From: an uncultured Pelagibacteraceae bacterium
GTDB taxonomy: Bacteria > Pseudomonadota > Alphaproteobacteria > Pelagibacterales > Pelagibacteraceae
Assembly (NCBI GenBank): GCA_902595375.1
Contig: CACJPW010000006.1
Coordinates: forward strand, 1-38,553
DNA: 38,553 nt
Direction: 5' to 3'
Under the pieces are notes generated by a model. That model was not told the origin of the DNA, ran no database searches, and was given only the letters and a program-made list of their open reading frames with translations. Made by a program: the position numbers and the translations under genes. This document shows positions 24,279-27,333 of this stretch, piece after piece. Within the stretch, counting starts at the first letter, position 1; the number at the start of each line of letters is the position of its first letter.

Positions 24279-24373
24279 TTAATCGCTAGCTTCTTGTATC
24301 ATTTTATACAGTATACTTGCATTTTTTTTATTCACATTAACCTATTTCTTATTTTATCTTTGTCTAACCTGAT

Positions 24374-25294
24374 TTACCTCGGATCTAGACAATGAACACT
24401 AAAAAGTTTTTTTTTATCAACCCAAGTTTTTTTAATTTTCCATCCAGCTTTATTAGCTAAGTTTTTGAAAGATTTAATCGAGTATTTATGAGAATTTTCA
24501 GTATGGATTTCTTCGTTTTTTTTTATTAAATACTTTGAACCATTAACTTTAATATTGCTGTTTTTTTTACATTTTAATCTCATCTCAATTCTTTTTTTTG
24601 ATTTATTGTATATAGCTAAATGTTTATAGGAATTTAAGTCTATATTTCCTCCCAATTCAGTATTTATTCTACGTAAAATATTTTTGTTGAATTTTGCAGT
24701 GACGCCTTTTTTATCATCGTAAGCGGAAATTAAAGTTGGAATATCTTTAATTAAGTCAACTCCAATAATAATCATTTTTGCTTTAAATTTTGATTTAAGC
24801 ATTTTTAAAAATTTAATAGCATCTTTTTTTTCAAAATTGCCTAGTGTTGATCCTGGAAAAAAAATAACTATATTTTCTGATGAGTTAACTTTAAAAGGTA
24901 GTTTACTATTTCTCGAAAAATCGTATGCTTTTGGCGTAATAGCTACTTTAGGAAATTTTCTTTTAAAACCTTTAGATATTTTAGTCATATAATCTTCAGA
25001 GATATCTAAAGGTATGTATTTTTTTGGTTTATCCAAACTATCAAGAAAAATAGCTATTTTTTTGATATCGCCAGCACCTGGTTCAATTAAAGTAGCGCTC
25101 TTACCTATTTTATTAGCAATTTCAATTTTATTATCTTTTAAAATTTTTATTTCTGTTCTTGTTGGATAATATTCCTCCAATTCAGTAATTTGTTCAAAGA
25201 GTTTTGATCCATGAAAATCATAAAACCATTTAGAATTTAACTTCTTATTTTTTTTACTTAATCCTAAACTTACTTCTTGTAAAAATGATTTCAT
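24374..25294 (-). CDS. egtD: EgtD-type L-histidine N-alpha-methyltransferase
   Basis: EgtD uses three SAM to convert histidine to hercynine (histidine betaine), the first ergothioneine step. The 306 residues are full length and keep the family N-terminus KWFYDFHGSKLFEQITELEEYYPTRTE (22-48), a SAM motif EPGAGD (71-76), PGSTLGNF and AYDDKKGVTAKFN. Residues aligning with the histidine-binding set of mycobacterial EgtD are all present: Tyr43, Asn153, Tyr192, Met238, Glu266 and Ser268 (alignment made by eye). The protein is Lys-rich and the gene AT-rich like the host average. Last of a three-gene cassette, overlapping the preceding methyltransferase by 4 bases. No EgtB-like sulfoxide synthase gene is in the window, so the end product may not be ergothioneine. 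Confidence 0.88.
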   Translation of the reverse strand: MKSFLQEVSLGLSKKNKKLNSKWFYDFHGSKLFEQITELEEYYPTRTEIKILKDNKIEIANKIGKSATLIEPGAGDIKKIAIFLDSLDKPKKYIPLDISEDYMTKISKGFKRKFPKVAITPKAYDFSRNSKLPFKVNSSENIVIFFPGSTLGNFEKKDAIKFLKMLKSKFKAKMIIIGVDLIKDIPTLISAYDDKKGVTAKFNKNILRRINTELGGNIDLNSYKHLAIYNKSKKRIEMRLKCKKNSNIKVNGSKYLIKKNEEIHTENSHKYSIKSFKNLANKAGWKIKKTWVDKKKLFSVHCLDPR

Positions 25295-26211
25295 GTTATG
25301 TAGGGCTCAACTATAAGACGGTTAATTGGCATTGAAAATTGTCCTTGTTTTTCAGCATCAGTACTTTCTTTGGATATTGCTAGTATTTTAGATAGACTTT
25401 TAATCATTGATTTCCTCTTATCTGGCTTTAAAACAAATGCAGCATAAAAAAACCCTGCTGCAGTTTCAGCCACTTCAATGACAGGTCCTTTTATAGATAC
25501 AACATTAGTCTCAATAGTCACATTTGCCTCTGGAAATGTTTTATGTGCAAGATTGCTTAGGCTTTCGGTTCCCCTTATCCTTGGATCACCTAAATCAATT
25601 TCCCCATAATTAGGTATTCCTTCTTGTACATAACTATAAATTAAATCGTATACCTCTTTATAGCTTGGAACTGTATTAATTGGTCCATCAACTAATGCTG
25701 CGAACCGCCCCTCAGAAGTTAAAACCCTTCTGACCTCATTTAACACAGGAGTTATTGGATCCATTAATGTTAAAGCCCAATGACATAATACTATGTCGAT
25801 AGAGTTGTCATTGATTGCTGTCAAATTTTGTGCTTTTGACTCAATTAGATTAACTCCACTGTTTTTCAGAAGATTCTTTGCTAATTTTAATTCTTCAGGA
25901 CACATGTCTATCCCTTTTAAATTTAAATTTTGGTTTCGATCGAATAAGATTTTTAATAATGTCCCTGACCCGCAGGCAAGATCTAATACACGTAATTCTT
26001 TATTATTAGGGACAATTTCAGCTAGCCATTCATAACTATTGCGTCCAGCTTTATCGCGACACGAACTCGCGCACGTTTCAGTAAATCCAGTATGTTTTTG
26101 ATGTACAATTCTTAAATGATCAACTAGAGCGTTGCTATCAGGATGTAGATTGCGGTTGAGACTGTCAGTCCAGGGCGAATTCAGTCCATTCTGATTATTT
26201 ATGTCTTTCAT
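25291..26211 (-). CDS. Class I SAM-dependent methyltransferase (Methyltransf_11 type)
   Basis: A 306-residue methyltransferase with the Rossmann SAM site VLDLACGSGTLLKIL (75-89), acidic residue after strand 2 in KGIDMCPEEL, and the post-I region DNSIDIVLCHWALTLM followed by EVRRVLTSEGRFAALVDGP. An N-terminal extension carries CASSC (Cys47, Cys51) just before the fold, which might bind metal or form a disulfide. The C-terminal third (about 210-306) is not familiar to me. The substrate is unknown; flanked by a PhyH dioxygenase (2 bp gap) and EgtD (ATGA overlap), it probably acts on the same small molecule. Base composition looks less AT-rich than the housekeeping genes around it. Confidence 0.82.
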   Translation of the reverse strand: MKDINNQNGLNSPWTDSLNRNLHPDSNALVDHLRIVHQKHTGFTETCASSCRDKAGRNSYEWLAEIVPNNKELRVLDLACGSGTLLKILFDRNQNLNLKGIDMCPEELKLAKNLLKNSGVNLIESKAQNLTAINDNSIDIVLCHWALTLMDPITPVLNEVRRVLTSEGRFAALVDGPINTVPSYKEVYDLIYSYVQEGIPNYGEIDLGDPRIRGTESLSNLAHKTFPEANVTIETNVVSIKGPVIEVAETAAGFFYAAFVLKPDKRKSMIKSLSKILAISKESTDAEKQGQFSMPINRLIVEPYIT

Positions 26212-26213
26212 GA

Positions 26214-27206
26214 CTAATCTTTAATTGGCCAACAAATTGGATTTAGTGGACTAGCGGCTACGTCTCCTGGTTTAACATTGGGCATAAATTTTTGCCAATC
26301 ACCAGAAACCATCGTCGGGGCATTAACTACTCTTGCTCCATCTCGGTAGTAAGTATTGGCTAGAACCACCCGGCTGCGATTAGTACGATTACGTGAAGCA
26401 GTATGAAAATTTAAATTATGATGGAAGCTAACCTCACCCAGTTCAAATGGAGTTTCATTCACACTTACATTATTTTTTAAAAAAACATCTGAGACCCCAC
26501 GGTCATATCCAGTACCAGTCTTCTCAAACTTAACAGCGTTAACTAACTCGTGAACACTAAGTGGATAGGCAAAAGAAAGCGGTCCCATCTCAAGAGGTGT
26601 CGGTTGTGCTGGCACCCAAGCAGTAACTACATCATTAGTATCTAGCGGAAAATGATGGTCGTCGAAGTGCCATGGGGTACGACCACAACCAGCTTGTTTT
26701 GCTAATACATTATCATGGTAAAGTCTAACAGACTGTACTTCAAGAAGATCCGCTGAAATTTGTCCTAGACGTGGTGATAATACATAAGCACGAAGGAGTG
26801 CGTTGTCAGTCCAAATCATTTCAAGACTAAGGAAACGATCATGTGCTTCTTTATCTGGATCAACCTTGAACTTTTTTTTTAGTAGATTAATTAACTCAAC
26901 ACGAAGTTTTAGCACAGCTCCGGGTGAGAAAACCCTCCTAAGTTTTATAAAACCATTTTTTCTAAAAAAATCGATTTGGTCATTAGATAATCTGTAGGGC
27001 TTTGCTAATTCTGAGATGACCTCATCATCACTGGGTATTTGAATTTCTGGTAAGGGGTCGACATTAATGATTTCATTATCTTTAACATCATTATCTGCAA
27101 GACTAACGTACCAATCCCACCAGGCCTGATTATCCTTGTCCCACGGTTTGCTTATATCGGAGGCATCAGACGTTCTAGAATTAAAATTTTTATTAGATTT
27201 ACTCAT
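26214..27206 (-). CDS. PhyH-family Fe(II)/2-oxoglutarate dioxygenase
   Basis: Non-heme iron oxygenase of the phytanoyl-CoA dioxygenase fold, which hydroxylates small substrates with 2-oxoglutarate and oxygen. In the 330-residue form starting at ATG 27206, the iron triad is His180-x-Asp182 (in PWHFDDHH) and the distal His268 (NFHTASRNRTNRSR), with Arg279 as the likely 2-oxoglutarate anchor. The upstream TTG at 27212 is a less likely start. The first 65 residues (Trp-rich: DNQAWWDWYV) are an extension not typical of PhyH. G/C content and codon use (GGTGCT, CGG, GCG-type codons) differ visibly from the AT-rich neighbours, hinting at acquisition. First gene of the cassette; not a CoA enzyme as far as can be told. 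Confidence 0.85.
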   Translation of the reverse strand: MSKSNKNFNSRTSDASDISKPWDKDNQAWWDWYVSLADNDVKDNEIINVDPLPEIQIPSDDEVISELAKPYRLSNDQIDFFRKNGFIKLRRVFSPGAVLKLRVELINLLKKKFKVDPDKEAHDRFLSLEMIWTDNALLRAYVLSPRLGQISADLLEVQSVRLYHDNVLAKQAGCGRTPWHFDDHHFPLDTNDVVTAWVPAQPTPLEMGPLSFAYPLSVHELVNAVKFEKTGTGYDRGVSDVFLKNNVSVNETPFELGEVSFHHNLNFHTASRNRTNRSRVVLANTYYRDGARVVNAPTMVSGDWQKFMPNVKPGDVAASPLNPICWPIKD

Positions 27207-27214
27207 TAACAACT

Positions 27215-27243
27215 ATTATAGTATTATTTTTAATTATTATTAA
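27215..27243 (-). promoter_or_regulatory. Candidate promoter of the PhyH-methyltransferase-EgtD cassette
   Basis: Read on the minus strand: TTAATA (27238-27243), 17-base spacer and a perfect TATAAT (27215-27220). Transcription would start around 27206-27209, at or within a few bases of the PhyH ATG (27204-27206), so the message would be leaderless or nearly so. The rest of the 27207-27333 gap shows no terminator or RNA gene that I can support. Confidence 0.5.
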
Positions 27244-27333
27244 AGGGCGTTTTGACATGGTTTATCTGGTTTTTTTATGAATTATAAATAATCCGCTAGG
27301 CTAGTGGGGAATATTGCATGCCTCTTAAACAAA

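Follow-up and report, generated by a model that had tools for sequence, protein, structure and literature searches.

Organization of the cassette

We analyzed a 38,553-nucleotide stretch of DNA (the window) from an uncultured Pelagibacteraceae bacterium (contig CACJPW010000006.1), in which three consecutive genes encode a PhyH-type dioxygenase (PhyH), a class I methyltransferase (MT), and a homologue of the histidine trimethyltransferase EgtD (Table 1). Inspection confirmed the three genes, which are intact and closely coupled. The TAG stop codon of PhyH is separated by a 2-bp gap from the ATG of MT, and MT and EgtD overlap by ATGA when the sequence is read. An earlier note on this DNA had claimed this coupling on a single strand, and both the open reading frame (ORF) list and the sequence agree with it. 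The cassette is not a chance arrangement, because the same gene order recurs in other genomes. The first PhyH start in the ORF listing is an alternative one, a TTG at 27212, which would give a protein of 332 aa. The nearest named relatives of PhyH carry Pelagibacteraceae titles, on which basis we class the window's genome as SAR11-type. No Rfam match was found between 23500 and 28000 at E values up to 1.

Table 1. Features of the cassette and its surroundings in the window
Feature	Position	Strand	Basis
EgtD, L-histidine N-alpha-trimethyltransferase homologue, final cassette gene	24374-25294	-	306 aa; TIGR03438, PF10017, seven site residues
MT, class I S-adenosylmethionine-dependent methyltransferase	25291-26211	-	306 aa; PF13847/PF08241; AlphaFold2 fold
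PhyH-type Fe(II)/2-oxoglutarate dioxygenase with Trp-rich N-terminal signature NQAWWDWY	26214-27206	-	PF05721; 330 aa from the ATG at 27206
Promoter-like conserved element 5' of PhyH (ATGTCAAAACGC..., TATAAT at 27220-27215)	27207-27258	-	Counts of GTCAAAACGC across loci
Inserted stretch of 3055 bp, lolA to GNAT gene	24279-27333		22/22 same-genus lolA loci without the insert

Protein families and active sites

The window EgtD scored 362.4 bits against TIGR03438, 71 bits over the curated equivalog cutoff of 290.9, and 338.2 bits against PF10017. Its nearest solved relative by sequence is Mycobacterium smegmatis EgtD (E = 1.6e-46), whose histidine site we take, in choice of residues, numbering, and roles, to be Y39, Y56, N166, Y206, M252, E282, and S284. 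At these positions the aligned window protein reads YYNYMES, identical at 7/7. N166 is also named in PMC9103826. The cutoff passed and the histidine-type residues kept sustain the earlier assignment as an EgtD homologue, and it is supported that the cassette EgtD would trimethylate histidine to hercynine.

We regard it as very unlikely that this EgtD methylates a different amino acid, giving a product unrelated to hercynine. Over 70 aligned EgtD rows the M252 position holds M in 59, L in 5, and G in 3, with 3 gaps, and the substitutions are what such a reading would draw on. The L rows come from loci or genomes of L160, L179, and L184 (L denotes loci and G genomes throughout), and the G rows are all g6-type, two from PhyH carriers and one from G090, which is without PhyH. 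However, M252 is present in the window and in all SAR11 rows that cover the site and have EgtD immediately following MT, E282 and S284 are conserved in 66/66 rows covering them, and the equivalog model is exceeded by the margin given above.

PhyH matched PF05721 at 51.3 bits (gathering threshold, 22) and no NCBIfam model at E = 0.001. We aligned 85 PhyH rows, comprising the window, 80 loci from GTDB genomes, and 4 more distant loci. The iron triad H180, D182, and H268, claimed earlier as an intact H-x-D...H motif, was found together with the distal R279 in 85/85 rows, and W29 W30 D31 W32 Y33 are conserved in all 84 rows covering that stretch. The nearest solved relative by sequence is SnoK (5epa; E = 1.2e-11). 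SnoK/SnoN and MysH are likewise of PhyH-type sequence, and the H-x-D, second His, and Arg line up with SnoK. However, the similarity is weak (E = 0.024 for MysH), and the SnoK and MysH alignments begin at query residue 72 or later, leaving the NQAWWDWY extension of the cassette PhyH outside. PhyH relatives with 29 to 46% identity also occur on plasmids of Streptomyces, Emticicia, and Priestia; the four matches begin at query residue 59 or later, with the extension again outside the alignment. Among viral contigs, 21 pattern-matching stretches were found, of which 0 encoded a relative.

MT matched only the generic methyltransferase models PF13847 and PF08241, and no NCBIfam model exceeded its cutoff among the 25 matches listed. 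By sequence, BamL is its nearest solved relative (E = 1e-5). The AlphaFold2 model (predicted local distance difference test [pLDDT] score, 88.8) adopts a predicted class I methyltransferase fold, and its top five structural matches by VIA-align, at Z scores of 20.8 to 22.1, were GtmA (22.1), TmtA (21.8; titled S-methyltransferase), OxaG (21.5), GtmA again, and RoqN. All of these are small-molecule methyltransferases with differing target atoms. Because these target atoms differ, no substrate of MT was inferred.

Recurrence of the cassette in the order

We searched 247 genomes of the window's order for PhyH at an E value of 1e-10. Twenty-seven genomes matched, 15 of them (window included) with a full-length protein of 83 to 100% identity; the other 12 contained other PhyH proteins of 20 to 29% identity and were set aside. 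The order PhyH-MT-EgtD was found in 13 of the 15 carriers, in one of which a contig end cuts EgtD, so the three-gene recurrence that the earlier note proposed to check does occur. G164 and G234 carry PhyH with EgtD elsewhere in the genome.

TIGR03438 matched 36 genomes at E = 0.001, two of which (G035 and G097) were dropped as chance-level, with E values of about 6e-4. Thirty-one of the remaining 34 exceeded the cutoff; below it were G164 (281.7 bits) and fragments in G124 and G194. Thus, EgtD occurs in 15/15 PhyH carriers versus 34/247 genomes overall (hypergeometric P = 5e-15, a value that ignores shared ancestry). EgtB (TIGR03440) was over its cutoff in 22 of the 247 genomes, every one an EgtD carrier. 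Twelve genomes with only weaker matches were left uncounted, since control genomes give such matches from other proteins; these include a contig-edge fragment in G166 and a partial match in the one-contig PhyH carrier G158 (41.8 bits versus a cutoff of 360). The window's own genome (858,590 bases, 68% complete) gave no EgtB match at E = 0.001, which answers one part of a proposed check for EgtB and EgtE elsewhere; EgtE, OvoA, and EanB were not searched for.

Of the 34 EgtD genomes, EgtB alone accompanies EgtD in 18, PhyH-MT alone in 11, both in 4, and neither in 1. Ergothioneine synthesis is therefore likely in part of the SAR11 family, namely, the 18 of 247 genomes with EgtB and EgtD but no PhyH-MT. 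The same division, in which the two are largely alternative partners of EgtD, would suit a route to ergothioneine that bypasses EgtB, with PhyH taking over C-S bond formation. We consider that route most improbable. The cassette holds no sulfur-handling gene, MT would be left without a role, PhyH has the complete 2-oxoglutarate-enzyme set of H-x-D...H and Arg, and EgtB and PhyH share one gene row in 19 SAR11 loci.

Two kinds of locus apart from the cassette were seen in these genomes. Ordinary EgtB-EgtD pairs are present in SAR11-family genomes at L073 7058-9237 (G140) and L072 7890-10024 (G017). A divergent EgtD group with G at the M252 position is found at L075 7365-8267 (G234), L076 (G164), and L077 (G090), and ORFs read by eye near these three genes include ProXW-type betaine transporter genes. 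Beside ProXW, L077 4761-6415 encodes what we take to be a pair of gamma-butyrobetaine-type dioxygenase-like and HD-domain oxygenase-like proteins, possibly for a phosphonate betaine.

Recurrence in GTDB and more distant genomes

Scanning GTDB species genomes yielded 158 PhyH relatives, of which the best 80 were used; several are genomes of the order search. Seventy-two of these carriers are SAR11 by title. The other eight comprise Marivita, Burkholderiales, Rhodobacteraceae, Thioalkalivibrio, Actibacterium, Rhodosalinus, and two unclassified proteobacterial metagenome-assembled genomes. MT lies 3' of PhyH in 80/80 loci. The layouts are PhyH-MT-EgtD (27 loci), PhyH-MT (25), EgtB-PhyH-MT-EgtD (19), PhyH-MT2-MT (3), EgtD-PhyH-MT (2), divergent EgtD with PhyH-MT2-MT (2), PhyH-MT-EgtD-EgtD (1), and EgtD-PhyH-MT-EgtB (1, in Burkholderiales), where MT2 stands for an additional methyltransferase, about 280 aa long.

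EgtD was detected in 75 of the 80 carriers, in the locus in 52 and elsewhere in the genome in 23 of the remaining 28; Actibacterium sp. 188UL27-1 is among the carriers with EgtD. The 28 without EgtD in the locus were searched with PF10017, which found EgtD in 5/8 and 18/20 genomes (13 nearly whole, 5 fragmentary); at its cutoff of 23 this model also matches the E. coli control, and the weakest best match counted had 100.7 bits. EgtB was found in 29 carriers: in the locus in 20, elsewhere over the cutoff in 6, as a fragment in 1 (L121), and in 2 of the 48 carriers whose fetched locus holds no EgtB. It was not detected in the other 51, of which 47 have EgtD, and no EgtB match came from any of the 28 SAR11 genomes whose locus has EgtD following PhyH-MT but lacks EgtB.

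The earlier note had described the cassette as lacking EgtB. In line with this, EgtB was not found over its cutoff in 11 of the 15 carriers in the order (the other 4 have it) and was found in just 2 of the 48 GTDB carriers mentioned above, but the description does not fit the 19 loci in which an EgtB gene precedes PhyH, the Burkholderiales locus, or the other carriers with EgtB elsewhere in the genome. Absence of EgtB is thus not a property of the family, and the constant module is PhyH plus MT.

Beyond these loci, four further genomes out of 367 hold distant clusters (L194 to L197) with PhyH, at 56 to 58% identity, and MT2. Three of them (L194 to L196) also hold MT together with a gene of MFS type, identified by Pfam in L194 and assigned by eye in the other two. 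L195 and L196 additionally contain an SSS-type gene, a PutP-like sodium/solute symporter (tested in L195). The transporters in L194 to L196 perhaps serve the precursor or the product. In a sample of the phylum, 2 of 398 genomes matched, the window and one weak match, and in the class of Thioalkalivibrio 1 of 312, the Thioalkalivibrio genome itself.

Insertion site and upstream element

Among 25 other genomes of the same genus that were searched, 22 contain lolA, and in 22/22 of these loci lolA and a GNAT gene lie tail to tail, with a 4-bp overlap in the four loci listed fully. In the window the two genes are 3055 bp apart, and the order search gave a PhyH match in no other genome of the genus. 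By this comparison, the cassette is a clean insertion, placed whole between lolA and the GNAT gene. The earlier statement that relatives often have xthA after lolA does not hold within the genus, where the neighbor is the GNAT gene. The G+C contents of PhyH (0.395), MT (0.358), and EgtD (0.246), compared with 0.302 for the window, fit different origins of PhyH-MT and EgtD.

In many loci, the block ATGTCAAAACGCGCTCTTACTAAT, followed by A/T-rich sequence and a TATAA-like hexamer, stands about 50 nt before the PhyH ATG. The 5' block is also found between EgtB and PhyH. We examined 74 loci (L110 to L182 and L187), some with little 5' sequence, and found GTCAAAACGC 5' of PhyH in 44 of them and at one other place when both strands of 1.07 Mb were searched. 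Other loci carry variants, and the L114 clade has lost the motif. Part of the conservation is explained by shared ancestry, but the groups differ in the sequence lying further 5'. Only 5 of the 24 loci read have an exact TATAAT in their 5' stretch; 7% of random stretches hold one. The element is probably a promoter carried with the cassette. A tiny frame starting with MSKR, which many loci have in this element, was dropped as a candidate gene: in g6-type loci such as L164, judged by eye, the frame is lost and the DNA motif is kept as a variant.

History of the module

In a tree of PhyH plus MT (85 rows), all 19 SAR11 loci with an adjacent EgtB group into a single clade (Shimodaira-Hasegawa-like approximate likelihood ratio test, 100) nested among loci without EgtB; the tree was built by a quick method with a single support test, forks around the clade have values of 85 to 90, and long outgroup branches were flagged. 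Because the EgtB-bearing clade nests in this way, the tree suggests that EgtB is a later addition to the SAR11 cassette, with repeated loss as the alternative. Five loci without an adjacent EgtD (L114, L115, L118, L121, and L126) form one clade next to the window. Of these genomes, three have EgtB and EgtD elsewhere, one just a fragment of EgtB, and one neither.

A tree of EgtD (32 rows) placed three lineages beside PhyH-MT: the downstream SAR11 genes, the upstream genes of L160, L179, and L184, and the divergent genes of L183 and L185. EgtD has thus become linked to PhyH-MT more than once. The surroundings vary as well. By automatic ORF choice over 74 rows (the window and L110 to L182), 71 rows have a gene preceding the cassette, falling into 18 families, and 68 have one following it, falling into 23.

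A candidate pathway from histidine

We favor, with fair confidence, the reading that the cassette is a small mobile operon turning L-histidine into a tailored histidine betaine. A more specific version, to which we give an even chance, is that an oxygenated and further methylated hercynine, not described before, is made in SAR11 and scattered other bacteria, by a mobile PhyH-MT module joined to EgtD of at least three lineages. Hercynine is most likely what PhyH-MT act on, either instead of the EgtB route or alongside it, because of the patterns of co-occurrence with EgtD and EgtB and because EgtD of at least three lineages lies beside PhyH-MT.

In the scenario we propose, the operon would have entered the window's genome as a unit at the lolA-GNAT junction, and it probably brought a promoter of its own. 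EgtD would trimethylate the alpha-amino group of histidine to give hercynine. PhyH would then oxidize hercynine, most simply by side-chain hydroxylation, as trimethyllysine hydroxylase does with its substrate, and MT would methylate the new oxygen or an imidazole nitrogen; these two steps might occur in either order. PhyH-MT would form a second outlet for hercynine beside EgtB, which leads to ergothioneine, and they are the only outlet found in most SAR11 GTDB carriers (47 of 72), while others have EgtB as well, either within the operon or at another place in the genome. The earlier note had proposed that hercynine is made and then modified. The residues of EgtD and the recurrence of the cassette support this core idea, whereas hercynine as what PhyH or MT acts on, the hydroxylation, the second methylation, and a role as osmolyte or protectant are what we infer.

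The cassette EgtD is of the same family as in the ergothioneine pathway (EgtD plus EgtB), and EgtB stands in the gene row of some cassette relatives; however, the constant partners in the cassette are PhyH and MT, and EgtB was not found in 51/80 carriers. In the carnitine route, trimethyllysine hydroxylase acts on trimethyllysine. The two routes are likened by their logic only, in that a 2-oxoglutarate dioxygenase oxidizes an amino acid betaine, whereas the betaine is another one and the cassette has a PhyH-type enzyme and an extra methyltransferase. The human hydroxylase uses alpha-ketoglutarate to hydroxylate trimethylated lysine in that route, according to a paper on muscarine (PMC13245600). 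In cyanobacteria, hercynine was present as a cellular betaine in 9 of 10 strains, 8 of which also had its thiol (PMC3826126), and the excerpt of that source mentions no tailoring of the cassette type. Hercynine is described as a competitive inhibitor of EgtD in a review (PMC9103826); an enzyme removing hercynine would, as an argument only, help flux. In the open literature we found no paper joining EgtD with SAR11, a dioxygenase, or phytanoyl-CoA dioxygenase, although a mention elsewhere is possible.

Several observations weigh against this reading. Co-occurrence, which is what the genomes offer, is no proof that PhyH or MT would act on hercynine. G090, at 95% completeness, has EgtD but neither EgtB nor PhyH-MT was found in it. 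No EgtD was detected in 5 of the 80 GTDB carriers, namely, the SAR11 loci L114, L121, L174, and L176 and L189 of Rhodosalinus sediminis WDN1C137, and L194 to L197 are without EgtD at the locus, though all four genomes have it elsewhere. In the three plasmid records read (of four), whose gene tables are incomplete, no annotated methyltransferase was found near PhyH. The AlphaFold2 model of PhyH (16 sequences) reached a pLDDT of only 47 and was set aside.

Some of these points would be expected if PhyH and MT had a substrate of their own and EgtD accompanied them simply as another frequent member of mobile marine gene pools. The 5 carriers without detected EgtD, the PhyH relatives in other contexts, and the distant loci L194 to L196, with PhyH, MT, MT2, and transporters but no EgtD, speak for this explanation. 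We find it decidedly unlikely in view of the 15/15 association against its background, the EgtD of three lineages placed beside PhyH-MT in three arrangements, and the EgtD elsewhere in all four distant genomes.

Outside SAR11, EgtB is frequent. It was found in four of the eight non-SAR11 GTDB carriers (L179, L184, L186, and L188), and among the four distant genomes it is over the cutoff in G387 and G565 and full-length but below it in G349 and G429. This frequency, a further point against hercynine as the substrate, would also suit a role after ergothioneine. PhyH and MT might modify ergothioneine itself, for example by S- or N-methylation and hydroxylation, with genomes lacking EgtB importing it from seawater. 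The presence of EgtB in 20/80 loci, and outside the locus in another 9 genomes (a fragment in one of them), is consistent with this idea, as is the place of TmtA, an S-methyltransferase by title, among the top structural matches of MT, where it is tied with GtmA and OxaG. We nevertheless judge it unlikely. Were ergothioneine imported, the EgtD kept by 47 of the 51 carriers without detected EgtB would be pointless, and EgtB looks like the later arrival in the nested SAR11 clade, although repeated loss could give the same picture.

Implications

Few cells in the ocean are as abundant as SAR11 bacteria, and their genomes are streamlined. A pathway that is retained and moved around in such genomes should therefore yield something useful. 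The link of PhyH and MT to EgtD provides a defined and testable precursor, hercynine, with defined mass shifts. Besides ergothioneine, selenoneine is a fate of histidine betaine. If our reading is true, the cassette would represent a third fate, and the compounds made in seawater would include an additional nitrogen-rich betaine. The presence of EgtD by itself must not be taken as a sign of ergothioneine synthesis.

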